Source of the DNA: Branchiostoma floridae
Lineage: Eukaryota; Chordata; Leptocardii; Amphioxiformes; Branchiostomatidae
Length of the DNA stretch: 64,000 nucleotides
Reading direction: 5' to 3'
NCBI RefSeq assembly: GCF_000003815.2
Contig: NC_049984.1
Coordinates: 13,835,985-13,899,984 of the forward strand
Part shown: one piece after another, positions 940 through 43,993 of the stretch
Layout of the letters: each line of letters starts with the position of its first letter
Numbering within the stretch: the stretch's first letter is position 1
Position numbers and translations under genes: made by a program
Notes under the pieces: model-generated
Database searches by the model: none
What the model saw: only the letters and a program-made list of their open reading frames with translations
What the model was told of the DNA's origin: nothing

Positions 940-2190
940 ACGCCCTACGGTAGGCACGTGCCTGTGTCAATCTGAGGCGTCCGGGTACAGGTATAATTCT
1001 TTAAATACATCCGAGATGCGTGGAAATCACCCACCTTCTTTGGTGGGAGATTCTGGTTCTCAGAGGGGTCCGACGTCGTCAGGCGGGTAGTCAACATTCA
1101 CAGGATGTTTCGACCTTGTCCCGCTACATCCTCGTGCTGACCGGTCAGCAGTGGTGGCCACTCACTGCTCGCCTCGCCCCTCTGGTCTCCAATTCTGCTC
1201 GTCTCTCTTGAGCCACAGCCAACAGGAGGCCTTCTCTGCTGCTTCCCCCAACAGTCTTGTTGCTTCCTTCCTTTCTCTACCTGTTAGGCCCAGGTCTTTA
1301 AGTAATTTCCATGATGATGCTGCCGGGAATCCTCTGCATCCAATTTCCACAGGGAACAGCCATGTGTTGCACCCTTTTCCCCTGCATTCTAGCAGCAGCT
1401 CTTGATATTTACTTCTTTTCCTTTCATGCGCCAGGTCACATCCCTCTTCCCAAGGCACAGTCAGTTCTATCATCACTATGTTGCCATCTGCGAACAGGAC
1501 AATATCGGGTCTTAAGGTCGTGTGGACCACCGATGGAAACTGTAGCTTCTTTCCTAGGTCAACCCTCATCTCCCAAGCTTTGGCTTTCTGCAAGAGGTTG
1601 CTGGATGGACGTGAGGTTGCTGGTCTTTTTTCCCCCTCCCTCACAAAAGTGATTGATGCTGCTGTTTTCCTGTGGGGCTGTTTGTTCTTCTTTCTTTCCT
1701 TCTCCAATATGCTGGCCAGAACTGCAAGGACTTTATCGTGTCGCCATCTGTATCTTCCTTGTGTGAGGGCCACCTTACAGCCTGAAAGGATGTGTGCCAT
1801 GGTGCCTCTACCCCCGCAGAGTTTACATGCTGGGTCCTCGACCAATCCCCACCTGTGCAGATTTGCCGGAGATGGGAGTGTGTCATAAACTGATCGCAGT
1901 AAGAAGGAAATACGGTATGGTTCTAATCTCCACAGTTCGGACCATGTTACTTTCCTCTGTGGGAGCTCCCATTTACACCAGGCTCCCTGTACTCCTAGCC
2001 CTACGGCCTTTGCTAGCATAACAAGAGTTATGGCGTTTGTTGAGGTCGCTAAGGTGTTTGATAATCCCTTTACCAGGAATTGCAACTTCCTTAATATCTG
2101 TTTCCACGTATGTCCAAGTAGTTATCATAACACTAGGCAGTAACCAAGGCAATGTACACGTAGCAAGGGGGCGTCTTAAACAACCCATAG
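940..2190 (-). mobile_element. 5'-truncated non-LTR retrotransposon, R2/HERO-like 3' end
   Basis: A minus-strand open frame (1162-2085, 307 codons) matches the C-terminal part of site-specific non-LTR retrotransposons. It has a CCHC zinc knuckle (CKLCGGRGTMAHILSGC, about residues 87-103), then an R-H motif (YRWRHDKVL), then a restriction-like endonuclease signature PDIVLF followed about 10 residues later by IELTVPWE. The reverse-transcriptase core that should lie upstream is absent, so the copy is truncated at its 5' end. Sequence from about 940 to 1161 is probably its 3' untranslated tail. The endonuclease frame carries no stop, which suggests a fairly young insertion. The exact clade (R2, HERO, NeSL) cannot be settled by eye. 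Confidence 0.75.
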
Positions 2191-20091: not shown

Positions 20092-23000
20092 TTAGCGGCT
20101 CTCCCTGGCATGCCCGCAGTCGGCGTTGAGGTACAGGAGATACCCCTCGTCCTCGGGCACCCCGGGCCCGCTCTCCCCTTCCATGTCCACATCCACCCCG
20201 GTGTCCAGGGACCCGCGGGCCCTCCCGGGCTCTCCTCCCGGGGCAGCCCCGCTTGGGCCCCGCCAAGCAGAGGGCTCGCCCGCCGAGCCGCCGTACAGCC
20301 CAGATATACCCGACTCCCTACAGTACACAATATAGCTGTCATCAGTATGATAACCTTGACGTTTGCCTACAGATTGGCAGTGCCGGTTGAATATGAAAAC
20401 ATATAATGCTCCTATGTAATCAAATATTAGCAATTTTGATCCATATATTTCTTGGATATCTCAGACTAAGTATGGAAACGCAAGCGGTGCATGCAGAATC
20501 CAGGCCACAGCCGTTGGCATCTGATCAAGAATCAGAATGCAGTGGAGTTTGTTGTACTGTGCCGTACCGTACTAACGTTGGCGAGAATATGCAACTTCTA
20601 TCAACATGCATGAGGAGTTTATAATACCTGGTCGAGGAGTATGGTTTGCGACCTAGCTAACTCCTCTGGCTTTTTGTCTGTCTAGATTTGACAATGGCCA
20701 ATTTCTACTATTTTCCCAGTGACCTGTGGAGCATAGTAGAGGCTAATACGGACCTCATACGGCCTTGAAAATATACGCACGTGTAGGCAGGCAGGTGTAT
20801 CACAGTAAGACCAAAATGTAGTTACCTGCTGAACGCAGTGCGCAGGGTGTCGAACGACGCGGCTCCACTACCGATAGGAGCACCGGTGGTGAGATGAGCT
20901 TCACGAGTGAGGCCTACACAAGATAAACACGTATCCATTAGACAGGGACGAAATAAGTGATTGTAGTTTCATAGCTACACGTGTATAGAACATGAGATAA
21001 GTTATAAACATACAGGAAATGTAAGTATAAGTGCAAATCATTTTGGAGAACATACCGAAGGGCCTAGACTTATCCGTCGAGGTTGTCCCACCCTTCCCTT
21101 TCCGGTTGGCGTCCTTGGGAGAGACCTTGGAACTGTCGCTGGTCTGGTTCGAACCCTCTGGTTTCTTCCGCGTGCAGCTCTTGAGGTACCGACAGATTCC
21201 GAACCTCCACTGGGCCCAGCCCGGCTTCCAGAAGCACCAGTATGACAGGTACGCCAGCAGCAAGGCGCCGACCAGCCCACAGGCGGCGTACACGGCGGTC
21301 AGGTCACTGCCAGCGGTCGTCTCCTCGTCGTCTGGACTCAGAACAATATGCACACAGTTTAAGTTTTTAAGTTTAAGGTTCCTGCCTGTTGACATAGGCC
21401 AATAAAACTGCAACTGAGTTCAATATGCATATGGGCCTCTTATAAAAAGAGAAATAAAAAATCAGAAATATTGAGTCATTGTTGAGGTAAATCTACGTAC
21501 AGTTTTGCATTATAATTTCTTGTACATGTAGACGTTTCTTAAATACGGAGACCTGTGACTTGTGAGTAAATAGTGCCACTTAGCGGAGTGACCGGGAGAT
21601 GCACCGGCGGTTCAAACTTTAAGTTGCATCCTTTAGATACAAGTGACTAAAAGACGACATCCTATGTCTCCCTTTCCGACTTTTGTTCTGTGTTCACAAT
21701 CTTGCGATTCATGCCAACGGAATCAAGATTAGTCAGAGTATCAAGAATAATTTTGTCCTGCCATAGGGCGTCACTTGGAGGTTGATATCTACTGACCGCT
21801 ACAGTTGGCCGGAGGTCCCTGTGACCCGTCCGACGAGTCCCCACAGTTGTCCACGTCGTCACAGCGCAGGGAGCGGGAGATGCACCGGCCGTTACTGCAC
21901 TGGAACTGGGTCTCCTCGTCCGCACACGTCTCTGCAAGGGGCAGAACTTTTTTAATTAGCCATGGGCTATGAAGGCACACTGATACTGCATACAGATGCA
22001 TGACTGTCCATAACTTAAGCCGTGTTTATCTATCTACACTTCTCTTAGTTCTTGAGACTGTATATGCAATTAGCTTAGTTCTTGAGACTGTATATGCAAT
22101 TAGCTTAGTTTGCAAATAAAACAATATTTGTATAATTATATATTGGCATTGCCCTGCTTGTGATGTTGTTGTTCACCTTGCAATGTAGTGTAGCACATTG
22201 GTCAGCAAGTATCGAATTCCTTTCTGTTTCAGAAGCAAGGTATATTTTAAAAGGGATGGATTATCAGCTCTTACCCTTTAACGTGCTTGGGACAGTCCTA
22301 GAACACCTGCGAACACGGAACCCCCATTTCACGTCCCATCCGAAAGCCAGGTGCGGGGTTTCCCTTTTACCAACTACTTGGAATCAGGAGCTCAACTGCA
22401 AGGTTTCTACCAGTTGAACTACCCGGACTTCCCTATTGCCTTGCTCACAGTCAGGCGTGCAAATTCCTCGAGTTCCATTCATCGTTGGTTATAACTTTTA
22501 GTAGACTAAAACAACGGATCAAAATTCTGAAACCAAACTGCATGGGAAGCTACTACACCCACCCACCTTCCTTGAATGCGGTGTAATCTGCTGTAAAGTT
22601 GACGAAGGTAGAGTTCCCCAGCAGTGACACCACCAGTAACATGTACTTCCCTGTGGACACGTACTCTGTCTCCATGGCTGACTCCTGACACACGTTAGCC
22701 AGTTCTGTTCCGGCGTTACTGTTTCCGTCGTACAGCTGATGGATAGATGGATGGATGAACAAGACATGTTTGCAATAGTTGCCACAGCCCTAACTTTCTT
22801 TAATTTAAATCTAACAGAAAGATAGATAAGAAAGTGAAACTCTAAGAATGCATATTTTTCAATACTTGCAATATCTTTGTCAGTTTAGCGTTGAAATGGA
22901 TTTGAACAATGTACGTTACGCCAAATAGCAATTACGCAAGCAACTGGATACCTTCGTCGACGTAACAATGAATGATGTTTTCACTCTTGTTAAAAATTGG

Positions 23001-26527: not shown

Positions 26528-29500
26528 ATGTTCAACTCAATGGGACGGGAGCGGAGGGGACGTGTTTGCGCAAGGTTGGACGGACGGCGCCAAGCGCTGC
26601 CGACATGTGGCCGTAACCTTCGCCTTCTCTTCTTTCTCGGCTTTGCGGTGTCACTTTGCCAAGGACAGGGACTTCCAACCAGTAAGTGTCCGCATCCAAT
26701 CACATGTAACAAACTATAGAATCATTTGTATGATTTGATTCTATGTTCATTGGTTGTGTTTTCTTTTAGACATGGAAACATAATTTTGTTTTTTTTTTTT
26801 TCATTTCATTTCGCACAGTTATTTGGGTGTTTAGCATTATTCAAGCTGACCGACGAAACTGGCCGCTGATACTATCTTCCAAAAGTTGGTGGGAACAAGA
26901 AGAGAACTGAAAATATCAGAATAATTTTGCTTTCATCAAAATTGAAGACTACGACAAACTGCTAGCCAGCTGAACTCACAGAAAGCCCCCATTTGTTATC
27001 AGCTGTTCATTTTCTAACCGTGGCGAAGTTTTCCTTCATGGTTGACGTGCTCTTTGTGACTTGCCTGTCGGGCCTAACGTGTTCTGTATCCGCTCACTTG
27101 TGTTTCTTGCTCTTCGTATCCTAGTTCATACATATCATCCACATGCTTTCAGACAAAATGTTCACCTGAAAATCTATATCTACTTCACACCTGAACAAAC
27201 TGTAACACTTTGAAGGCCAAATGTCGTTCACGCTTTTTGCATTGCGTTTCAAGCGGAAAAGAGCGGATGTGTAATACTGATGGCCCAAGAAGGAGCTAAC
27301 CTTGTACTCACAGCGATGATGGTCAATCTAGCTACATATTTCGTCTGTCGTATTTCAAATGGTAATATTCGTGGAACACAACACCGGAGAATTAGGTCCA
27401 CGTGTTCGGAGTCTTGAAGTGTGGTAGATATCAAAGGATGATGTTTTCAATTTCCTTGTACAACATGCCGTTTTTATGTCTACGTACATGTATTTCCAAG
27501 TCAAAAGATACCAGAAGCCCCTTGATCTGCCGCTAAATCACACAATTGCAGCAACCGCACGTTTTACTCACATGTATGTCCAGAACACGAGCTCTGGTAC
27601 GGGGGAAGGGGAGACAATACGGTGTTACCACGGATCAATTTTTGACTTGAAGATAAAAGAACAGACGTGCCATCGGTACAACTTTTTGTACATTATACTA
27701 GCAGAAAATTGGTTGAAATATGTGCGTGCGTGCCACATGGTGAAAATCAGAAGGCATGCCAGCAGGACAGGTAATCCGTAAGGACAACAAAATTTCTCAG
27801 CGTTTCTAAAGTGTGTCTTTGGTTCACGTGGGTCTAACTAATAGTGTCAATGTTACACAGTAGTTGGCATGGGTCTGGTAAGGACAAGCTCTCAACACAG
27901 TTTAACTCTAATCCTTCCGTTTGGCGCAAGGCAGACTGAGTAAGGTCGTCATTTCACAAAACGGGTTGACATGTATTGAAGACGTGGAATAGATACACAA
28001 CTTGAATGAATAGAAATCTACAACTAACATCGCAGACTCAGGCTCCACTGCCGTGGCACTACTAGTCATTAGCCGTGGACCGTGGACTTTAGCCTGAGCC
28101 TGATCGAGGTATGAGAGAAATGTCCCTTTTACTAAACCCTGACTGGCTACATGTACTTTTAGCCACGTGATCCATATAATTAAAACTAACTCCGTATGTT
28201 CTCCTGCAGTAACTATGGTGAACTCATGTGGCACATCAGACCAAGACAACGGCAAGATCGTGGAGTCCCATGACGACTCGGTCAGCGACTACGTCACGTC
28301 ATCGCCGCTGGATTGTAGCCTGACCTTCCAAGTCCCCTCCCCGTACACAAACATCCTGTTTCAGTTCAGATTCTTCGAGATAACAAGTTCCTTGACCACC
28401 ACAACTACAAGTAATCCTACATCTATCAGCCCTATCGGGACGACCCAATCTGCGGCTGATGTTTGCGACGGTGTCGGAGCCCATGTGACATTTTACGACG
28501 GTTCGTCGTCGTCGGCGCCCGTCCTGTCAGGACCAGTTTGCGGTAGCAGTACCCCGGGAAGCGTCATCACGACTACCGGGAATCTGACGATGCGATTGGT
28601 CATCTCTGCTTCGTCTGCTCAAGTCAGCTTCGTGGGGGACTACACATCATTCCACTCAGGTGTCACAGCCATTATTTTTTTCATTTTTCGATAAGCACGT
28701 GTAATAGCGAAAGAAAAACAAAACACCAAAGTCACCGTTGTTACTTTTGATGAAGGCTACAAATAGTTTTTACTTGTGATCCCCACAGAACACATCGAAG
28801 CTGTGAAATGACATACATTGATAAGTGTCAAATAAAAAGTTAGTTTCAAGTTGTGAAAAGTAGCATCTTTGCAAAAAGCAAAGGTAAGATGCTCTGCAAA
28901 AGAACACCGAGCTGGTTCAAGTTTCTTCATGAGAAGTCTAAAACATGTTCATTGTTTATTACCTATTTACAGACACAGGTTCCTGTACTGGAGGTAACCT
29001 GTTCCAGTGTACCAACAACAGATGCATCGCGTTCGACCTGACCTGTGACCAGACCGGCATCGACAACTGTGGAGACGCCTCGGACCAGTCCTTCGGGCCA
29101 CCAGCAAACTGCAATCGTAAGTCGGTATCGTTAAATACTTGACATTACGCGTTTTTGCGTCAGCTTCTGTCGAAAGTTCTCTGTTTTTGTGCTTTGTGTG
29201 GCAGTCATTACGAGAAGATTCACGTACTATTCAGGATGACACGTTTTACGTCATTTCACAGCGACCACTGCGCCCCCGGCTGTAGTGCCTGAGGACGGAC
29301 TGAGCCCTGCAGTAGTAGGAGTGGTGGGCACCATGGGAAGCCTCACTTCAGTGGCGGCTCTCTATTGGCTCCTCTGGAAACCTGGCTGGCTGACGTGGCG
29401 CCTCAGCTCGTTACGTCACGTGAAGTACTTCTCATCCATTGGTCCTCACTGTCTCTCGTGTTCGCAGTTCTGTCAGAACAAGCTCTGCTCTCCGTTAGAC

Positions 29501-29845
29501 GCCTGCCTCGGTACAGGTGCCACGTTAGTCACAGTCACCCCTGTCGGTATCACCATCGTGGTAGCCGAGGCAGAGGCATCAACCTCCACAACAGCATCCC
29601 AAAATGCCCACATCGTGAAGAAAGAGCCGACTAAAACGCGACTTCCCAAACGACCAGGCAATCCATCGGTAGCGGTCGCTCCCGCCGCCTCCGCCGCTGC
29701 TGCCTCCTCTCCCTTCCTCTCCGTAGACTACGGTCGGAGCGATCTGGTCAGGCTCACCACGGACAGGGCAAGACCCAGGGAAGGTGATTACTTGGACCAG
29801 TACGTCTGGGCCAACAAGAAAAGACTCGGAATGGACCTGCTATAG
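26528..29845 (+). CDS. CUB + LDL-receptor class A single-pass membrane protein, paralogue
   Basis: Four exons: 26528-26681, 28210-28659, 28973-29116, 29262-29845; 443 aa from the first Met, or 439 aa if the Met at 26540 is used. A signal anchor or signal peptide (LRLLFFLGFAVSLCQG) is followed by a complete CUB domain in a single exon (NSCG...GKIVESHDD..., VTFYDGSS, VSFVGDYTSF). That domain has a Thr/Ser-rich insertion (about 110-125). The LDLa module (FQCTNNRCI...DQTGIDNCGDASD) ends in FGPPANC, close to the paralogue's QGPPANC. A TM helix (about 263-284) runs into LLWKPGWLTWR, the same juxtamembrane motif as the paralogue. The tail has a Cys-rich segment, a Lys/Pro and Ala-rich stretch, and the C-terminus DYLDQYVWANKKRLGMDLL. 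Intron 1 is 1.5 kb. The function is not recognised beyond cell-surface binding; it is convergent with the guanylate cyclase gene. Confidence 0.86.
26682..28209. other. Intron 1 of the plus-strand CUB-LDLa gene
   Basis: About 1.5 kb without a recognisable exon. A weak inverted repeat (about 28033-28105, ends CAGGCT/AGCCTG) may be a small fold-back element. Confidence 0.5.
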
Positions 29846-30260: not shown

Positions 30261-30482
30261 TACTGTAAATGCAGAAATGTTCGCGGTGGATTAATGTTCG
30301 CGGTTTTCGCGGTGACCACTTCACCGCGAAATTAAAACCACCGCGAACATTTTTCTATAATGATATTAGATTGCAGTCTATGGTGATACCGCGAACTTAA
30401 ATCCACCGCGAAAAGTCCTTTTTCCCGCTACCGCGAAATTAAATCCCCGCGAACTTAAAAACATTTACAGTATTTTTGTGTA
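30261..30482. mobile_element. CGCGAA-rich palindromic MITE
   Basis: Terminal inverted repeats TACTGTAAATG / CATTTACAGTA bound an interior of alternating TTCGCGG and CCGCGAA words separated by ATTAA-type spacers. Related words occur at 19468-19550 and 52745-52860. The interior could fold into several hairpins. Not coding. Confidence 0.75.
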
Positions 30483-31444: not shown

Positions 31445-34400
31445 CTAACATTCTAACTCCGGGACGATCTCCTCCGGTAAGGGCTTGTTGAAACCATCCT
31501 TTCCATAAATCCAGTAGGTTTTGATGGACTTCCCTTCCTGAGGAAAAATATGAAATTGTAATCAGAAACTAATACAGGCTTTGTAGGTTTTTTTACCCCC
31601 ATTGCCTACGCTTATTTTTGTCCATCTCCTCATTAAAACTGTGTAATTCAGTGTAACGGATTTCAATATTTAAAAATTTCTAAAGTAAATGAGTCAAAAC
31701 AGATTAGAATTGATAACTACTTTGTAGAACATTGGGCTCAATAAAATATCGGGTATGATTTACACACTAAATGTGATAAAGTCTCACGAGTAGAGTAAGA
31801 ATATGGAGTAAGTGACCTTGATATCAACATCACCACGTTGGACCATGCGGAAGCCACCTATACCTAGCAGAAGATTCGCACAGTCCTCGCTAGCCTGAAT
31901 CTTCATGCCTGAAGTAGAAAAAAGTCCGTGAAAGTTACCAAGGAAAATGTAGCCAATGCCATAAGATGGACCAGCGTTATCTTAAGACATTAAGAAGAAG
32001 GTTCGCCATCTTAAGTTTTATCCACACTGTTAGGGTTCGTGGTCCACTACACTTCTATAGACGTCTGCGTGTTGTCGTCAGGATAGCTCCGCATCAAAAT
32101 ATCACTAAAAGGACGCCCTATTTTCTACACTTTTGTACGTCTAAAATCAACAAAGTTGGCTTTTCACCTGAAAGAGAGATATATACCCACATAAGCCGCC
32201 CTTTCACATAAGGTGTGAGTCTTTCCATAAGAGTGTTAGTGCAGTCGGAAAAGCTGCTTACGTTTCATAATGGACAAAATGGGACTGTTGACGTCATCTC
32301 TTAATCACGTGAGTACCAGGAGTTAATACCGTACAAGTGGTAAAACATAACAGATGATAATCTTCTTTGAGAGTCGATCTGAGTTAAGGGGCTTAACCTA
32401 ACCAAGAACATGCAGTATTCATCATTTTGTGGCCTTGGAACCAGATTAAAAAGAGTACATATAGCACATATAAAGAAACACGGGTCATGGTGATCCTTGG
32501 TGACATGTCCAATGATACTAGCTGTGCTTTAATCGTGTCTTTTTTTTTTTTTACATTTCCTCCTTACCTTCCCCGGTTGTTTCCATCGTTAGTGCGACGC
32601 CGACAGTGTCGCCGAACACCGAGTAACGCGGCATGTTAAAGCCGACCACGCCAGCTACAACAGGGCCTATAGGGAACGATATGGAACAACGTGACTCATA
32701 AAGATTTGATTAACCAATGGCAAGCTAGAGCTCTGATGAACTTACCATACAGTCAAGAAAACATTCAAAGAGCCGACGTTGAAATAGATTTGAAAATAAG
32801 TCATCTATTTTTTTCATGCTGCCTGACCTCCTTCCTCTCCCTCTCACACTCTCATTTATGCTTTCTGTATTTTGCTGCACTTTTCATTGTTTGACCAATC
32901 TTCTGTCATTGCCCTTTCTCCCACCTCCGCGATTTCTCGCGTCTTATCTGATCAAACTCCATTCTGTCTAGAATTTAGAAATAAATTTACATATACACGT
33001 TGTCAACTTGTCAGTGTTTAGGCTTACCCGTGTGCATCCCCAAGCGGACCTGCAGGGCCCTGTCCCCGAGGAACCTGCTGCTGAAGCCGCAGACCGTGCT
33101 GACCAGGTCCAGGGCCATGGTGGCGATCTGACCAGCATGTCTGTTTCCATTCCGGACAGGGAGGCCGGACACTACCATCGTACTAGCATCAGCAACGCTG
33201 TCCAGCTGAGGAAAACCGAAATACTACAGTTTCTCGTGTGGTTCAGTTTGATCTTTGGAAATGATATTTTCACGTCTCAAGTCTCTTATCAGTAATCAAG
33301 GGTATATGAAGTACCACAAAAGAGCAGATAAGATAGAGTAAAAAATGCCGGCCAATCTCTGCGAGATAAAAACACCAAAACAATTCACTTAGAATATTGT
33401 ATAGTCCGAGCACCTTGATAGAAAAATTAATATGGCCAAACGCGTTTGCGCGCACCTACCTGGCTCACGTCATAGCGCTCAAACACCTCATCAAAACTGT
33501 TGTACAGGTCATTCATCAGGTCAATCACCTGAGGAGACAGGATAGAGAATTATGGATACTTTTATAGGGAATATGCTCTAAACACGGTGTCTTGCTTGGT
33601 ACGTCAGTATACAATGCAAGCTAGTCCCATATCTACTTTAAAGGATGTTAACTTGACGTTTCTGGTCGCAACCTTGAAAATGTATACGTAGTGATCAAGT
33701 TTCTTCTTTGAACTTTTTGTGAATAGAAACAAGGAGCTTTTATAAAAGCTTTTATAAAAGCTCCTTGATAGAAATGAGCAGATAGCCAACTCCGTAAGCT
33801 GACCTCCATCGCCTGCAGCTCCGAGCAGATGGATGAGAGGTTGATGACGTTGCAATGGCAGATGGTGACCGTCTCGAACGCTTCGGCGTTCACAGGCAGT
33901 CCTGCTTTCAAGTTGTCAGCAACTCCCCTGGACAAAAACAATAGACATGCCATTTCTTTCTGCAAGAAACTTGTTACAGAGTGATCATTGAATGTATGAT
34001 TACAGTTAGAAAACGCCTGGTTCGTTGATAATGCTACAACAGTCAGAACATTGGGGATTACCTTGGAAGCATCCTGTAGAGGATGAGGTCGGTTTTGTGT
34101 TTCTCTGCCCGCAGCTCCTCAGTCCGTCTGTGCACCAGGTCCTCCAGGTTGTTCGTGTAGGACTCCAGCATGGAGAACATGTGATCAACGATGTTACTGC
34201 GTCTGCATAGGAATAAACAACATAAGTCAACATGGATTCCCGAGGATCAATTATCACCTGAAAGTCCAAACCTATAAAGATATCTTTCGTAAATTCATGC
34301 CCATTTTGTCAGAGAATCCCCTTGACGAAATCCAAGGGGTTATACGAGTCCTGATACAGAGAGGAAAAAGAACTTAATTGTGCCACAATACAATTGTAAC

Positions 34401-37400
34401 GGGTACAATGTATGGCAATCTGTATATACATTGAGCTATGTTTCTAACATCTAACAACTTGTATCATCCAATCTAATCCAACAGTACCCGTATAGACAAT
34501 CTATTTAATGTTACACAAACAAATACTTTAGACCATTTTGTCAATAACATATGTATCATATTTAGCAATAAACCCCTAAAAAGGAAACAACTTTGACATG
34601 ATTCTTACTGGCCCTTGTTGAGCTGCCCGATGGCAGTGTCAATCAAAGAGAACTCTGGGCGGGCCTCCGGGTCCTCCTCCCAGCTCTGCTCCATCAGTGA
34701 GATGTACTGCCGCGGTACCATGGCGTCCCTCACCCACGGGCGGAACAATGGACTCGTCCGAGCTTTCACCCTCTCTATGATGTCTAGAAGAGCAACGGAG
34801 TTGATTCATGTGAAAGTAAGATAAGAAATTGAAAATACAAAAAGTCCTTACCGAAAGTTATCACCAGATTACCAATCACTAGATTACCGAACACAATGAA
34901 CAGCAGCGGGAGGAGAACATTAATTAAAGATCAGTTAAACAGTGGGATCTGCTACCCAGAGATTTCAAGATTGTCTCCGATACCCGATTGTTTAAGAAGA
35001 TGACAGACCAATTTTCGGATCATAAGTTTTAGTTTATATAAACCTCTGACCTCACTCGTGATACATACTTTATGTATGTATTCGTATGTAAGTCTGACCT
35101 GTTTTGAGGGGATGTTATTGTATCTGTTTATGTATTTGTATATATTGTATACCTTCTTATTTGTATATGCCTGGGAAGATTAGCTCAGTCTGAGCTAAAG
35201 GGTATCTCAATAAACTAAACTCACTACATACAATTCCGTTGTCATGAATGATCAAGCTATCCTGAAAGATCAAACAGTTATTGGATTGTGCTGTAAACAA
35301 ACTGCAGTTTACCTTGCGGCGTCATGAGTGACATCATACAGTACGGCGCGCCCCGAACAAATATCTCCTGCAGGATGATCCCGAAACTGTACACGTCACC
35401 CTTCTGGGTACCCTTCTTACTGGCAGTTTCCACAGGCTCCCGTAGGTGTTCAGGAGCTGTCCACAACATTGCTGAAAAAAAAAGCAAATACATTACACTT
35501 TAGTGTATAATTTCTATCGTCTGCCATGAAATGAGAAACAATAAATGTCGTATCTCAGGAAGATGGCGTCAGGGTGAAAATGTATAAAATGTCACATGAT
35601 GGTAACTGAACATGTTATTGGCGTTCAATACTCAAGCCCACGAACTCGTCCCTGAAAATTGGTAAATGGTCTATTCTCTAGGATAAACCTAGGGTTTCCA
35701 GGATTCTCTAAGGGTCTCCAGAAATCTCTTCAGTCTACGGTTTCTTACCGGCATATTCCCCCCTGGCCCGTGCCCGGACCGCCGAGCCGGCCGACATCTC
35801 TCCGTAGTCCGTGATCTTCAGCATCCACCGCGAGTCGATAACACAGTTGGAGGACTTCAGGTCACCGTGCGACACTAGCGCACTGCGGTGGAGGAAGTCC
35901 ATACCCTGGAAAAGCGATAGATCAGAAGCCAAACATTCGTTTAAATTTTCATCAAATTATACCCTAAGTGGAGAAGACACTTCATCTTTCAACCACCCTA
36001 GTAGATTTCTGCATGTACAAGAAAAGACAAATATACATTGGCACCAAAATGTCAATAGCTCAATGATTCCATGACTTTAAAAAAATGTTGGTCATAGTTT
36101 CGTTAGTGAAAATGATGTGTCAGTAAAGTTTCTATTACCTTCACAATGTCTGTGATGAAAGACGACTTGAAGTTCCAATTCAACTTGATGTCATCGTTGT
36201 GCAAAATATCCTGTTATAACGTAAAAAGCAACAGAATCGTATGTCATCGCTGTGGGGGGAACATTTAAAGGTAAGAAGGCTCCTTGCCCAACTTACCTAA
36301 CAACTCTTATGTAGGCTTGCATGTTTGTCTCGGTGGTAAAAGTGAAGAAAAATCATAAATTACTCTAGCATTATGTTACTACGAAGTTTACCAGAGGGGG
36401 TGGTGGGTTTACCTGTAAGCTCCCTCTTGTACATAGCTCCATAACGGTGCAGATGTTGGGCGCGTCCACGCATGCTCCAACAAACGGGGTCAGGTTTTCA
36501 TGGCGAATCTTACTCATCTGTGAAAATATAACTCAGTCAGTCAGTGGACATTCCGCACTTCAACTTTCATCTTGGCAACAGCTTTATTTTCTGTCTTATC
36601 AAATATCAATTTGTTCAGTACCTCTCATAAAAATGCCGCAACTAACTGTAAATATGAAAGTCATATACGAGACACCACGTGCCCGTCATGATAACTCGTC
36701 AAAGTCATGTGTGATTGTTGGCTAGGTAACAACATCACCTGGAAAAGCTCATAAAGACGAGCTGGAGTCAGCTCAAACTCATCAGGAGGGACATGCTTCA
36801 CTGCTACCATGGAATTCTGTAAGATATCAAGGTAAGGGTAAAACCTCCATATAAAAGCTGCAAAAAGATTGGTATTCAGATCCAGTGCTCTCCATAAAGC
36901 TGACTTTTTTGCGAAACTCTGTAATCCATAGATAAATGCTGGTGTATCATATTCCTGTATCATTGACGACAGCATTAATTAATTACTGCTAGCTATGGCG
37001 TTGCATTAAAGTTCCTGCATACGTCATCGTTGGTGATATCACGTGATGACACATAAACTGTTTTGATTGGTTGAACTTGATCCTGACCTTGTGGTGCGCG
37101 GCGTTGACCTTCTTCTTGTCGTGCAGCAGCTCGACCATCTCCAGGTCGTTCGAGAAGGAGGAGCAGAAGGGGTCAGCGTACGTGTGGCCGGACGACTTAC
37201 TGGAGCGGGACGTGCGTGATGTGCGGGACATCCGGGACCCGTACTGAGGAACGGACAGACCTGACATTGTATTTTCATTCTACACTTTATTTCATAATGC
37301 TAGATTTTCGATTTTTGTATTCATTGGTCGGGCAGTGTAAAAAAACAACAACAACAGTATACCCGTGGCTCCCAGCTAGGCAATTTGCGTCATCTTTTTC

Positions 37401-40400
37401 TATAACTTATCAATTTTTCGCAACAAGACGCCACGTTACTACAAATATACTTTCTAAAAGAATGTTCGTCAGGAAAACAGCACGGTTACAAAACATAAAG
37501 CTATCCCGCAATACATGTTTTTGCTTGCGTAAACTGTTCAATGTTTGATTACACTACGTTATAACGCGTCATCGTCAAACATCATTTGCCTATCTAGTTA
37601 TAACTCAGACCCACCGTAGGTACATATTTGCGTTACAGCTGATAGTGAAGAGTTATTGCGTAGTGTAGTGTAGTGTAGTGAAGTGTTGTGGCGTATTGTG
37701 GTGTATGTAGTGTAGCCCTCACCTTTCGCCGGTTTACGTGCCTGTTCCGACCGGGGTCAATGAAGGTCAACTCCTCGTAGTTTATCTTCCACATCATCTG
37801 CCACACTTCCTTCTTCACCATTTTCCTCCTAGATTAGGAGGTTTAGAGGTAAAGAAACAACTGAGCTGATCATCATTATATTTCAGCCATACCATAGGTA
37901 TGGTGAAATATATTGTATTCGTAATGTTTCTTCTTTCTTCTTCTTCTTCTTTCTCCTGTCAAATCTTCAAATCGATTCAACTCCGTCGTTCCTGGACCGA
38001 ATTACTTGAAATTTGGCACAAGGGTAGAGTGGGTCAATACCCATGTGTTTTTTTCTCATTTTTTTTCATATCTTCCTTTAAAATGATTTTATTCATGTTT
38101 TTTGCAATTGTTATGTACATTTTGCCCCCCTGTACCCTGGTATTGCAGCCGAATGACCTGATATTTGGTACAGAGGTGCCTTGATCATATGCCCACAATA
38201 ATCCAAAAACAATTTTGGCATACGGTACAGAAAAATGCTTAATTTTGGCATTTTTTGCCATTTCTTGCCCCCAAAATGACATTTTTGGCTCCTATACCCC
38301 CATTTTACAACCAAATGACCTGAAATTTGGTATAGGAGTGCCGTCTACATATGCGCACATAAATTCATTAACACTTTTGGCATACGGTACAACAAAATGC
38401 TTACTTTTGGGATTTTTTGGCCATTGTTTGACCAAAAACGTACGCTTTTGGCTCCTGTTCCCTGGTCTTGTAACCAAGTGACCTACATTTTGGTAAATAG
38501 GTGCTCTAGATATTCATTCAAATGACCCATGCATAATTTTTGGCATAAACCACTTCAAAATGATATATTTGGGGACTTTTTTTTGTAATTCTCCACTGGC
38601 CTCTCCCACCTGAAGACAGCATGTGCACGTCTATATATACTAGTAACTTGATTAAAGAGGCAACCAATCACGTAGCCTGAGTCAACATCCCGAAGGGGAT
38701 TGGCAGCCAATCAGTGAGCCCGGTGTTATCTGGATGAGTCCATTCTGGCACGGAGGGGGTACATATTTTTTTAATTCATCTTTGGACTGTTGATAATATA
38801 ATGTCTGTCAGTGGGAGTATTTTTGAACCGGACTATTTTACATGGGGTGTACTGGAAGAGTCCATTCTTGCATGGAGGGGGGCATTTAAAAAAAAATTGT
38901 TTATGGACTTGGTGATTTGATATGTCAAAGTGTTTCAGTGTGGTTTTTCTTTGACTGGTCAACTTTGCAATTTTACATAGGTTGTGCTGGAATAGTCCAT
39001 CCTTACATGGGGGGATTTTTAAAATCCATTTTTGGGACTTTGGTGATTACGTCCAAGTCCAATTTTACCGGATGTATTTTTGGACTGCACCACTTTACAT
39101 AGGGGCATCGCAAGAAGAGTCCATTCTTGTATGGGGATGTTTTCAAATTTAGTTTTAGAAAGGTGATGATTCAATATTCCATTTTTAGTGGAAGTGTTTT
39201 TGAACTGGTCTATTTTACCTTTTCATGCCTTTTTTGCTTAGTTCAACCTTGGCCATGTTTTCAGTGGGAGTATTTCTGGACTGGTCTATTGTGCAAATTC
39301 ACATGGGATGTACTGGAAGAGTCCATTCTTGCACTAGGAATTTTGTAAGATTCATTTTTGGGTGTCATTAAGTGTCATTAGTGGAAGTGACTTTTACACA
39401 AAAGTGTTCGATTTTTGCACATGGGTGATTTTGGAATAGTCTATTATTGCATTGGGAGGGAGATGGCTGAAATATGCTGCATTTGCTCTCAAGCAAATGT
39501 CGGCCTTTCTAGTTGAAAAGTTTGTTTGTGTCAGTAGTATCTTTGTTAATGGACACCTAAATTTGGATCCAGTTCGCAAGTACGATAAAACTATATTTCC
39601 TAATAGGAGCCAATTGAGGGAAATATGCATCTTTTGTATCAGTGGGGTTCAAGCACCACCAACTGGTCATTTCAAGTGGTCCGGACTTTTTGGCGTAGTG
39701 GTGATGGAGTTGGGTCGTGAACTGGCGGGTCCGGAAGCCAGGAGACTGTTTCTACTCGCCTCTAACGCTTCACTTGATACGATTTTTATTCTTTACACGC
39801 ACTTGCTTCATAGTTTCCAACAGTCCCGTCGTGTTTGGCAGGCTTACCTGATGATGAAGAACACGGCGAAAGCGGCGAGGGTGAGCACCAGCAGGGACGT
39901 GGTGGTGGCCGCCACGATGGTGCTGGAGTCGATAGTGAGTCCGCTGTCTGTGGGCAGCTCTGGGGAGGGACGTACGGGCAAAATCTAAGGATGCTTTCCT
40001 GATAGTATCGTTCTTTCCTCACTTAGTAGTTCATGTAATCGAAAGTTTATTGTTTGCAGTTGAAACTGACCATGGAACAAAACAGACCCTTTCAAGAGAG
40101 TCCCTCTCTAGCTTTTGCCATCCTGACCTCCCTTCTATCCTCTCAAATTATTCCGCTTGACTTCTCTTTCACCTTGCCATTGGCAATATGCGTTCAACTT
40201 AGCCTTTACAAGGAGGTGGATCTCTGGTCAAATAGTAGAAATTGGACTAATGTAGGGACTAGTCATCTGGTCGGTCGACTCCTCTAGCATACTATACCTG
40301 CGCAGTCCAGTTTCTACCATTTGACCAGCGATCCACGAGGCCTGGTAGAGGCTACGTTCAACCAAAAAACCTTTGACGAACACAAAGAACCGTACCGTCT

Positions 40401-43400
40401 TTGGGAGGCCAGACTCCTCCGGGCCAGTTTTGGTAGGACTGGCCCACGAGACTGTGGAACTGCCTGGCTGTTTTGTTGTACTGTGCTATCATCCGGACCT
40501 GTTTAACGCCGTGGTGGAACAGGGCGTAGTCACCAACACTGTCGCCATCCTCGTCCATGTAGACTGTCTCATTGCAGAAACCTGTGTTTAAGAGAAAATA
40601 GATGTTGACTCTGATGAAAACTATACGAGCTGATGGCAAGTAATCGCTTGGAGCGGGAGACAAATACACGTTACTATTGTCTTACAGCTCTTACAGTTTT
40701 TTTCAGCATAGGTACACTTCTTTTAGTCATCTTTGATTTTAGATTTATTTTGTAGTTACTGTCCTCACATTGGACTACTTACCCTTACCGGTTCTTTCAC
40801 TTTTTATAAGATACGTGAAAGTCTGTTTAACTCATGAAGAAGTAACATGGAGGAACCCACCTATAAAACTCATGTTGCGCATGTTTTTACTGATCTGGAT
40901 TTCATTTGGATCAGGTAAGGCATCTGGAATTACTGTAGCAGGAAAAAGAAACGAAATTAACGACATCTAGTACATTTGAGTATATATAGCTGCTATTGCA
41001 TACAGTACCAACACCTGATGGTCTGAAAATGCACAGAGGGTTGAAACAGTCCTATTTATTGTTATTGGATAGTTAAAGTGGCTTAAACAGTCTTGTCCTG
41101 GTGTACATTGTAGATGCCAGGGGTTGAAAACCAAGTTCAGACCAAGGTAACAAGTCAAGGGGAACAGTAATTCATTCATTGTTGATACGGGTGGCCAAGA
41201 CTATCAATGATACGCACACATCAGAAAATAGACATCAATCGAAAGGCAAATAGTTGCCAGTTCCATGTTGCTGTTCATGATATAGGAGGTCTTACCAGGC
41301 AGCATCCCGGACCCCTCGTCAGCCCTCCCTTCCCGGCCATCATTGTGGATCAGTCCCGGAGCGAATGTTCTCAGTAAGGACTGGTACAGTAACTGTACGG
41401 CGTTATACAGGTTAGACATCTCTACCAGCCTCTCTATGTCCTGACGAGACAAAACAACACCAATGTCAATGTTATGGCATACACTGTACAGTATACACAT
41501 TTTTTATCCTAACCATTTGCTCCAGGTCATCTATAACAAATATCAAACGTCAATGGGAAGGTCGTAACATCATGCCATACCTCAATGGTTTTGTACCCGT
41601 TGTCGTCTCCTTTCTTGGGAATGATATGTTCAGATACAGGCATCTTGTCGTTGACCCTTCTTTGGAACTCCTTAAGGTCACAGCCGATGGCCAGTGTCCA
41701 GCCCAGTCTCATAAGAGAGGCGTAGGCTTCCCGCGCTTTTCCGTCTTCTGTGTCGTTCATCCGCCATGCTCTGTGAGGACGCCAAGTGTCATGTATCAAA
41801 TATATGAATATCATTTCCTCAGAAAAATTGTCTAAGATTGTTATTAATGGTTCTTGATAGAACTGCCTTGAAATGTTTTTAGTCCTTTGGTAACTATGCA
41901 CAATATACTGAGGACTTGTACTTTGCCATTACAACAATAAGGTGTAAATCTAGATCTGTTTTATGATTTTGTTTTTCCATTCCTTTTTTTAATACATTTC
42001 AGAATCATCACACAATATCTTTGAATGTTTTCGAGGCATTACACTGGCACCAGGCATAGTTGTCACGATGCATATGCATGTATTCTATCACATTTGAAGA
42101 CAGTTATTCCCGTCGGTCACCAAGGAGGTTTCTGATCACACAGAATTTATGCTGGGAGTAGGATGCAACAAAATGCGCTATACCTCTCTAAGATGGCCAG
42201 GTCTGTGATCGGTTTCCTCTCCAGGGAGAGGAAGACGAACGATCCGTCGGTCATCCCCAGCTCGTGCGCCGCCAGCATCAGCTGCCTCTCGTCCCCGCCG
42301 TTCTCCTCGTGGTGCACCAGGGACGACACGCACAGGATGATGACTGTTGCAGAGCACGATGGGAATCGTTAGAGGGCGTTCGTGGGAGGTTGCAATGGGG
42401 GGGGGGGGTTAGAAGATTGGCAATTTTAAATATTTCATGAAGCATTTAAGGCTTTGGGTGGAAATTGAGTGACTAAAAAGCATTTTAGATAATAAAAGGT
42501 GAAACAAGAAACGCCAGGATCATTTCGATATGATAGACCAGAAAAAACAATCTGCCGATGACAGCTTTATAGATTTATATTTATGCCTGGGTGGCTTCAA
42601 TTATTTGCTTCAACCACATATTTGTGTGGGAATATATTTGTCTATCTCACTATATTAAAAACGTGTCACGTTCCATGCAATTTATGAGTATGAATATTTC
42701 CAATAATTGAGTCCACCGGTTGTCTCACAAACGCACAGTCATTACACATAGAATATTTTACTGCACAGATATTAAGCAATGAGCCCCATATATCATAACA
42801 ATATGTGACTTATTACATCCGTGCTGAAGGAGGAGTTTCCTGTGGAGTTGGTCGTGCCACCCTTTTACAATGGGAAGCAACAGGTGGCTGGTGGTGGGTA
42901 ATAAACAATTTTTGTGTCCAAAGTACATAGTGTATGGGTTAATGGCCATTTTGTCATTCATGAAATGTTGTTTGAAAAATATTATGGAGAAAAATCTTCA
43001 CAACCATTTATGCTAACGTCACATTTCCAAACCGGGGCCCGGCCGGGATGTTTGTGGAAATGTAAAATAGAAATGTATACGTAACGATGTACACAAATAA
43101 TGCCAACGACTTTTCTCTTTACGTCTTGTGTAGTTTGGTGTCTTATATATGATACCTTTAATTCCCGAAAGCTGTCGACAGTCCCGAAAGCCGGGTCCTG
43201 GTTTGGAAATGTGACGTAGGCCTTACTTTAAAGTAAAGGTAGAGTTATCGTAGTTTAATAGAATGTCCACCACATGTACAAAGCAAAATTCTATAGAATG
43301 TGAACGCTTACTTTGAGAGTGTGTCGCAGCTTCTCGCAGCTTCGTCTTCATCGTGTCTCTGCTCGCACCTGGCTCGACGTTGATCCGCTTGATCAGCTGA

Positions 43401-43993
43401 ATTTCTCTCTCGGGCAGCTGAATGGTCAGGTGGCTGGCCAGCAGCTGCCACGACACCTCCTGAGAGGCAACCACGGCCACTTTGGTCCAGCCGAAGTGCG
43501 TGACCACCTGGGTGTATATGGCCGTGGTCTTGTCGGCCGGCCATGTCGTCCGAGCGAACGTTTGATACTTGGTCTTGTCGGATAGTTCGGTGGGAGTAGA
43601 ACAGAAGGGAGAAATGAAAGGGATCTTCAGCCGCGTCATGGTCTCAGGCATGACTTTACACATGTCCTCACACTTTACACCGATCAACCCCACCGTCGTC
43701 GTCTGGGACGGGCCGAGAAAGATGCTGAAAAACGACGTCATGCCGTAGAAAGCGTCACATTTCCCGTCTATGCTGCTGCTGCGGTACTCGTAGCTGAAGG
43801 TGATGTTGGGGAGGGATCCCGGCCCGTAGTTTATGTTGTCCACGGCGACTTTTGTCACAGCTTCCAGCTCCGTGTCCTCGGGAAACACCAAGGCGAACGT
43901 AAAGCGTTTGTTAGTCCCCTGAACCTCTCGGTTGGTGAGAAGAAAAAGTATCAACACAGCAACGAATTCCAACAGGTGCTGAAAAAGCATCAT
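31445..43993 (-). CDS. Membrane guanylate cyclase homologue with degenerate cyclase domain
   Basis: Twenty-one exons (minus): 43312-43993, 42184-42343, 41581-41770, 41296-41440, 40396-40581, 39848-39959, 37723-37828, 37088-37243, 36739-36816, 36413-36517, 36139-36210, 35749-35905, 35313-35471, 34609-34783, 34062-34202, 33804-33927, 33460-33528, 33028-33205, 32568-32666, 31817-31908, 31445-31537; 1092 aa, normal for the family. Signal peptide 1-26; ANF-receptor ectodomain 30-440; TM about 467-489. The kinase-homology domain (about 495-815) has VAVK586, HGD679LKSSN684, D697YG and [10 protein letters not shown] linker helix (830-872) and cyclase domain (880-1062) follow. The cyclase fold is clear but key residues differ from active enzymes: metal Asp is N901 (HCNVINL), guanine-binding Glu and Cys are D941 and S1014, and transition-state Asn/Arg are G1021 and T1025. 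cGMP synthesis is therefore doubtful. The Met at 43993 was chosen over an upstream in-frame ATG because it heads the signal peptide. Confidence 0.92.
33730..33767. repeat. Perfect 38-bp palindrome
   Basis: Centre AAGCTT with arms CAAGGAGCTTTTATAA on each side, and no spacer. It lies in intron 16 of the cyclase-like gene. It can form a cruciform or, in RNA, a tight hairpin. Confidence 0.95.
37829..39847. repeat. Diverged tandem repeats in intron 6 of the cyclase-like gene
   Basis: Two repeat arrays fill this 2-kb intron. From about 37960 to 38590 a unit of roughly 150 bp recurs about four times, marked by GACCTGAAATTTGGTA and TTTTGGCATA(C)GGTAC. From about 38750 to 39450 a unit of roughly 110 bp recurs about six times, marked by AGTCCATTCTTGCATGGGG and GGAAGTGTTTTTGGACTGG. 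Both are imperfect, so they are old arrays. No exon was seen. A (TTC)n run lies at about 37927-37950. Confidence 0.7.
40195..40352. mobile_element. MITE with GCCTGGTAGAGGC-type end, intron 5 of cyclase-like gene
   Basis: The left arm (TTAGCC...GGTGGATCTCTGGTCAAATAGTAGAAATTGGACT) and the right arm (AGTCCAGTTTCTACC...GGCCTGGTAGAGGCT) are inverted copies around a short loop. It shares its ends with the elements at 5638 and 20653. Confidence 0.7.

Follow-up and report, generated by a model that had tools for sequence, protein, structure and literature searches.

The receptor gene described here, found in a 64,000-nucleotide window of the Branchiostoma floridae genome (positions 13835985-13899984 of contig 6), is a case of a natriuretic-peptide-receptor-like (NPR-type) protein that is predicted from its sequence to have kept the fold of a guanylyl cyclase and lost the synthesis of cGMP. 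Five of the eight residues that line the active site are replaced, the replacements fall on both faces of the composite site, and the remaining inner domains have changed at ordinary rates. Its sequence carries the features of a pseudo-guanylate cyclase whose gene has been retained, and its most likely role is that of a dimer partner without catalysis of its own, a reading to which we assign a probability of about 0.5. Receptor cyclases with missing catalytic residues are already known; in this receptor both halves of the site are broken.

An intact gene with the domain order of a receptor cyclase

The gene occupies the minus strand from 43993 to 31445 and is modelled as 22 coding exons that join into a single reading frame of 1113 codons. 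All 21 introns are bounded by GT-AG and no stop interrupts the frame; neither a broken frame nor a broken splice site, the marks of a pseudogene, is present. A small gene finder based on dynamic programming produced the model, anchor peptides being supplied in one of its runs. Two places were then set by hand, the start of exon 5 from the reading phase and the joint of exons 20 and 21 from the reading phase and the GC-A alignment, and for this reason the limits of the ectodomain are more uncertain than other parts of the model. The parts of the gene are as follows.

31445..43993, minus strand: whole gene of the predicted receptor-type pseudo-guanylate cyclase (gene model and Pfam)
40396..43993, minus strand: exons 1-6, ANF_receptor ectodomain (Pfam, residues 45-435), preceded by a start that by eye resembles a signal peptide
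40923-40861, minus strand: exon 5, 63 nt
39848..39959, minus strand: exon 7, hydrophobic membrane-spanning segment of 26 residues, judged by eye
34609..37828, minus strand: exons 8-15, juxtamembrane stretch and kinase-homology domain, KHD (Pfam, residues 597-839)
34062..34202, minus strand: exon 16, linker, a coiled-coil region by homology to GC-A
33804..33927, minus strand: exon 17, first cyclase exon, YFSDIVGFT changed to CHCNVINLS
33460..33528, minus strand: exon 18, cyclase domain
33028..33205, minus strand: exon 19, cyclase domain, KVETIGDA changed to QLDSVADA (the Q is the end of exon 18), followed by one additional residue
32568..32666, minus strand: exon 20, cyclase domain, YCLFGDTVNTASRM replaced by another 14-residue stretch
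31817..31908, minus strand: exon 21, end of the cyclase domain with the phosphate Lys kept, joined to exon 20 by hand
31445..31537, minus strand: exon 22, C-terminus and stop codon

An earlier, sequence-only reading of this DNA had placed the altered cyclase exons at 32568..33927, where exons 17-20 indeed lie (33927-33804, 33528-33460, 33205-33028 and 32666-32568, minus strand). It had also held that all 21 exons are open and in phase; the open frame stands, together with its GT-AG sites, whereas the exon count is 22. Its residue numbers are all shifted from ours by exactly 21, equal to one 63-nt exon, and exon 5 is such an exon.

The third codon positions are of the coding type, with a GC of 0.69 in the cyclase part and 0.73 in the remaining codons, and the introns have an overall GC of 0.38. 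If stops occurred at 0.056 per triplet, as they do in the gene's own introns, a stretch as long as the cyclase part (217 codons) would stay open by chance with a probability of 4e-6. Among the 71 matches listed in a protein search of the animal's own genome there is no close second copy of the gene, the matches outside it being short exons of at most 68% identity.

Pfam recognises an ANF_receptor domain (residues 45-435), a protein kinase domain (597-839) and a Guanylate_cyc domain (908-1094), the last nearly full-length (profile positions 1-182 of 183, E 1.5e-40). With the membrane span and the signal peptide, both judged by eye, this gives the order of the receptor guanylyl cyclase family: ANF-receptor ectodomain, membrane span, KHD, linker and class III cyclase. 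The KHD retains the VAVK lysine (K607) and the HGD and DYG motifs. In searches of the PDB the linker and cyclase match GC-A best (E 2.9e-69), with GC-C at 7.9e-53. A query running from the ectodomain through the KHD likewise finds GC-A best (E 1.2e-74). The match takes in the membrane-proximal ectodomain and everything from there through the KHD, and in the same search the outer ectodomain did not align significantly with GC-A. GC-A, also named NPR1, is both the best PDB match and a receptor of the same domain order.

Replaced residues on both faces of the composite site

HMMER alignments to GC-A (9bcv) and GC-C (8fx4) supplied the active-site residues, which were then checked column by column. 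All eight are present in GC-A and in GC-C, whereas the lancelet receptor has three, namely the second metal Asp (D966), the phosphate Arg and the phosphate Lys, and replaces the other five. The codons concerned, with that of D966, are listed below.

33849..33851, minus strand: codon AAC, N922 in place of metal Asp 1
33200..33202, minus strand: codon GAC, D962 in place of the guanine-specifying Glu
33188..33190, minus strand: codon GAT, D966, metal Asp 2, kept
32620..32622, minus strand: codon TCG, S1035 in place of the guanine-specifying Cys
32599..32601, minus strand: codon GGC, G1042 in place of the ribose-orienting Asn
32587..32589, minus strand: codon ACG, T1046 in place of the transition-state Arg

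Within the set that defines an enzyme (two metal Asp, Asn, Arg, Glu and Cys) metal Asp 2 is the one residue of six that is kept. The loop DIVGFT, in whose vicinity phosphate is bound, reads NVINLS, and a single residue is inserted just past the second metal Asp. The same five replacements, numbered N901, D941, S1014, G1021 and T1025, had been described from the sequence as five independent changes; the HMMER alignment bears out every one (as N922, D962, S1035, G1042 and T1046), yet their weight is unequal and three of the eight active-site residues remain, which that description had left out. Exchange of Glu for Asp and of Cys for Ser is mild, and the weight of the case lies on Asp to Asn, Asn to Gly and Arg to Thr.

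Winger et al. assign the residues of the guanylyl cyclase CYG12 as follows (PMC2576301): the metal ligands Asp 482 and Asp 527 and the phosphate-binding Arg 571 lie on one subunit, Asn 599 (ribose), Arg 603 (transition state) and Lys 640 lie on the other, and the base is recognised by Glu 523 and Cys 592. Counterparts of Asp 527, Arg 571 and Lys 640 are present in the lancelet receptor and the remaining five are absent. Class III cyclases are dimers with two sites, each composed of the metal face of one subunit and the Asn/Arg face of the other. Since the receptor lacks Asp 1 on its metal face, and both Asn and Arg on the opposite face, neither its homodimer nor any heterodimer would contain a complete site. 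In an obligate heterodimer half of the ODR-1/DAF-11 kind one half-site is intact; here neither is. We conclude that the cyclase is very probably dead, in agreement with the loss of activity proposed from the sequence earlier. Weak nucleotide binding may still occur, given that metal Asp 2 and the Arg and Lys that contact phosphate are retained.

Several routes by which the residues might be restored were considered. Alternative exons supplying the missing Asp, Asn or Arg, which would have spoken against the sequence-only reading, were sought by running GC-A and GC-C as tblastn queries against the complete window; at E<0.05 this returned the gene's own exons alone, a search that very short or very divergent exons could escape. 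In exon 19 there is one further early AG, 8 nt in, and its use as an acceptor would shift the frame. A-to-I editing of RNA could turn the AAC codon into one for Asp, but could not convert GGC to Asn or ACG to Arg.

Distribution of the changes and what it favours

Are the replacements part of a general decay of the protein, or are they confined to the catalytic surface? In the cyclase domain, where the receptor is identical to GC-A in 85 of 182 columns, GC-A and GC-C share the same residue in 106 columns, 42 of which differ in the receptor. Departures are concentrated in the three active-site motifs (21 of 32 columns, against 21 of 74 elsewhere, p=3.7e-4, the motif segments having been chosen after the alignment was seen). 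For the eight catalytic positions alone the contrast, 5 of 8 against 37 of the 98 other columns shared by GC-A and GC-C, is not significant (p=0.16). The test was then widened to 12 comparators, namely GC-A and GC-C together with ten loci from the animal's own genome (L016, L017, L028, L029, L040, L041, L043, L044, L045 and L046) that were picked for having no replacement among the catalytic residues seen, the first motif being unseen in L044 and L046; it was restricted to columns with data in at least nine rows. The receptor breaks 17 of the 48 columns that are invariant among the comparators, 13 of 21 in the motifs and 4 of 27 in the others (p=9e-4); at the catalytic positions themselves the choice of comparators with intact residues favours this result. 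When the comparators are left out one at a time, each breaks 0-5 of the 39 to 53 columns invariant in the others, the most being the five of L016, four of them in motifs.

We then compared three proteins, counting the changes unique to the first and to the last: the receptor, GC-A and an intact paralogue on contig 12 (C12:15876600-15892000, L049 and L029). In a comparison of 36 rows none has a cyclase domain more similar to that of the receptor than this paralogue (identical in 72 of 139 columns). Exons for its KHD, linker and cyclase domain are found, and seven of its eight active-site residues are seen and all are kept, the Lys-bearing exon end not being found. Its sequence was pieced together from tblastn matches, is without the start of the KHD and one cyclase exon, and has one or two doubtful columns at that joint. 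The alignment of the GC-A and GC-C KHDs was left out of the counts. In the KHD the receptor has 24 unique changes and the paralogue 34 (202 columns, p=0.24), and in the linker 10 and 5 (58 columns, p=0.30). In the cyclase domain the numbers are 45 and 10 (158 columns, p=2e-6), made up of 21 and 0 in the motifs and of 24 and 10 outside them (p=0.024). The contrast between the cyclase and the remaining domains has p=4.9e-5.

Whether this paralogue is the sister gene is settled neither by KHD identity, in which the receptor is closer to GC-A (106/202) than to L029 (97/202), nor by phylogeny. Two FastTree trees, each of 37 of 42 rows (L030, L031, L034, L035 and L037 were dropped as too short), disagree on the receptor. 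With all columns it stands on a long branch with the soluble and adenylyl cyclase group (0.714), L029 being next (0.834), and with the motifs masked it joins a NIT-like group of four loci (0.740), L029 again being next (0.165). The three-way test is therefore used as a contrast between domains and no sister is claimed.

Taken by domain, the counts indicate that ordinary constraint continued to act on pseudokinase and linker as the catalytic surface disappeared, selection after the loss being read from paralogues only. Since even the nearest paralogue has only about half of its residues in common with the receptor, silent sites should be saturated. The damage lies in the cyclase domain; the moderate acceleration outside its motifs could reflect general relaxation. 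With KHD and linker under ordinary constraint, a slow death of the whole gene and a pure ligand trap are both disfavoured, and a KHD as conserved as that of an active-looking paralogue argues for a function inside the cell. In the reading that we prefer, the receptor would still dimerise through its ectodomain, KHD, linker and cyclase fold, and would serve as a non-catalytic subunit of receptor cyclase dimers. A dimer formed with an active receptor cyclase would have zero complete sites, and the most likely action of the receptor would be to damp the cGMP output of receptor cyclases in the same cell, as a putative dominant negative.

The same conservation would be expected if the receptor signalled on its own and without cGMP, its homodimer acting as a ligand-controlled scaffold through the KHD. 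In identity to GC-A the KHD matches that of the paralogue (106/202 and 96/202), and the VAVK, HGD and DYG motifs are kept. Use as a dimer partner would, however, conserve the KHD equally, and the literature consulted names no output of a receptor-cyclase KHD alone; autonomous signalling is a possibility that we hold to be distinctly the less probable of the two. A sink or clearance receptor for ligand, similar to NPR-C and with an inside that is no longer relevant, would account for the intact ANF_receptor ectodomain, but an idle inside should decay throughout, which KHD and linker do not, and we regard this as unlikely. More unlikely still is a recently dead gene on its way to becoming a pseudogene. 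The excess of changes in the cyclase domain outside the motifs (24 against 10) would fit such a gene; its 22 open exons with GT-AG sites, the GC3 of 0.69 in the cyclase codons and the lack of acceleration in the KHD would not, and the alteration of 13 of 21 invariant motif columns needs time. Some residual cyclase activity, weak or altered and perhaps directed at another nucleotide, with Asn as a metal ligand or with residues borrowed from a partner, could draw on the retained metal Asp 2, Arg and Lys and on the mildness of the changes at Glu and Cys, but is very improbable given that the opposite face has lost its Asn and Arg, that the phosphate loop DIVGFT is gone and that no heterodimer could supply both faces.

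Other cyclases of the genome and known systems

The genome of the animal (513 Mb, 431 contigs) was searched with Pfam, giving 101 exon-level matches. These were grouped by place, and the motifs of the 39 groups outside the window were read by tblastn. The Lys column was not used for paralogues, because a Q found at that position probably comes from the CAG of a splice acceptor. Apart from the ten comparator loci, three loci of another branch (L019, L020 and L022) are without a replacement at the residues seen. In L019 the normal MPRWCLFGDTVNTASRMES exon is preceded upstream by a degenerate exon-like copy, MPRYTVFGKDVTNASIIEK (L019:2869-2988), either an alternative exon or a neighbouring remnant.

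Catalytic residues are replaced at several further loci. Metal Asp 1 is Tyr in L015 and Asn in L021 and L042, and a Tyr takes the place of the Arg in L023. L018 (3015-3236) has lost both Asn and Arg, which are Thr and Met (TVTMANMMES), and keeps both metal Asp; this is a half-dead site of the nematode heterodimer kind. L021 (2964-3690, contig 4) and L042 (282-1009, contig 2) differ by 4 nt and by no amino acid in 504 bases that include some intron, and are 94% identical over 1118 aligned bases; their other seen residues are intact. The list also includes halves of adenylyl cyclases and subunits of soluble cyclases that lack some residues, and such gaps are known for their asymmetric heterodimers.

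The NIT-like four (L024 and L025 on contig 4, L047 on contig 3 and L048 on contig 14) all have Gly for metal Asp 2, at a joint confirmed by splice modelling. In all four the base Cys is replaced, and in three the transition-state Arg is changed (Gly, Ser and Lys). Their upstream exons give weak NIT matches below the curated cut-off, and no KHD was found within about 4-5 kb upstream of the first stretch. They differ from the receptor in architecture, as the latter has an ANF_receptor domain and a KHD, and in the residues lost, as it keeps Asp 2 and they lose other residues. We suggest tentatively, and with rather more doubt than belief, that lancelets keep dedicated dead receptor cyclases as regulators, beyond rescue by a partner, that silence cGMP by dimerisation or signal through the KHD alone. 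On this reading both faces of the composite site would have been lost in at least two separate lancelet architectures, the NPR-type receptor and the NIT-like group.

Family receptors without cyclase activity of their own, as proposed here, include NPR-C and dominant-negative NPR-B. NPR-C and the NPR-B mutant lack the cyclase domain, whereas in the lancelet receptor the domain is present and predicted to be dead. NPR-C has neither KHD nor cyclase domain, and Pfam finds both in the lancelet receptor. Thompson and Garbers reportedly showed in 1995 that GC-A with D893 changed to Ala is a dominant negative; residue 893 of the GC-A chain aligns with metal Asp 2, which the lancelet receptor keeps. 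Dominant-negative NPR-B is in use in rats (PMC5157132).

Closest in the kind of loss are ODR-1, DAF-11 and other receptor cyclases of C. elegans without GTP- or Mg-binding residues, which likewise lack catalytic residues and for which heterodimers are proposed (PMC8045692, PMC5225109). According to PMC5225109, ODR-1 and DAF-11 each supply part of one site, their residues complementing each other. Compared by this published description, the nematode cyclases are complementary halves of one site, whereas both halves are broken in the lancelet receptor. Complementation of the nematode style cannot explain a chordate receptor with two dead half-sites. Among the literature matches listed, none is a receptor cyclase with both half-sites dead and the rest conserved, and none of those listed describes by title or abstract a dead receptor cyclase of amphioxus. 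The receptor is a natural case of separation of function: if it has a phenotype, that phenotype would show what ligand binding, KHD and dimerisation do without cGMP, which is a question for the whole receptor cyclase family.

Relatives outside the animal were also looked for. A scan of contigs for bacterial relatives gave one distant locus, L001, which was left out of the comparisons, and a single scan of viral contigs gave none. Elsewhere in the window, open frames at 28143-29845 (plus strand) have a borderline CUB match and a hydrophobic segment, and a stretch WKPGW at 20901-21419 (minus strand) is similar to them, which suggests that the window holds related genes. An open frame at 1162-2121 (minus strand) has a zf-RVT match just under the cut-off and is probably the reverse transcriptase tail of a mobile element. 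Repeated words, TTCGCGGT and ACCGCGAA, fill the region 30280-30470, which by eye resembles a dispersed repeat element.
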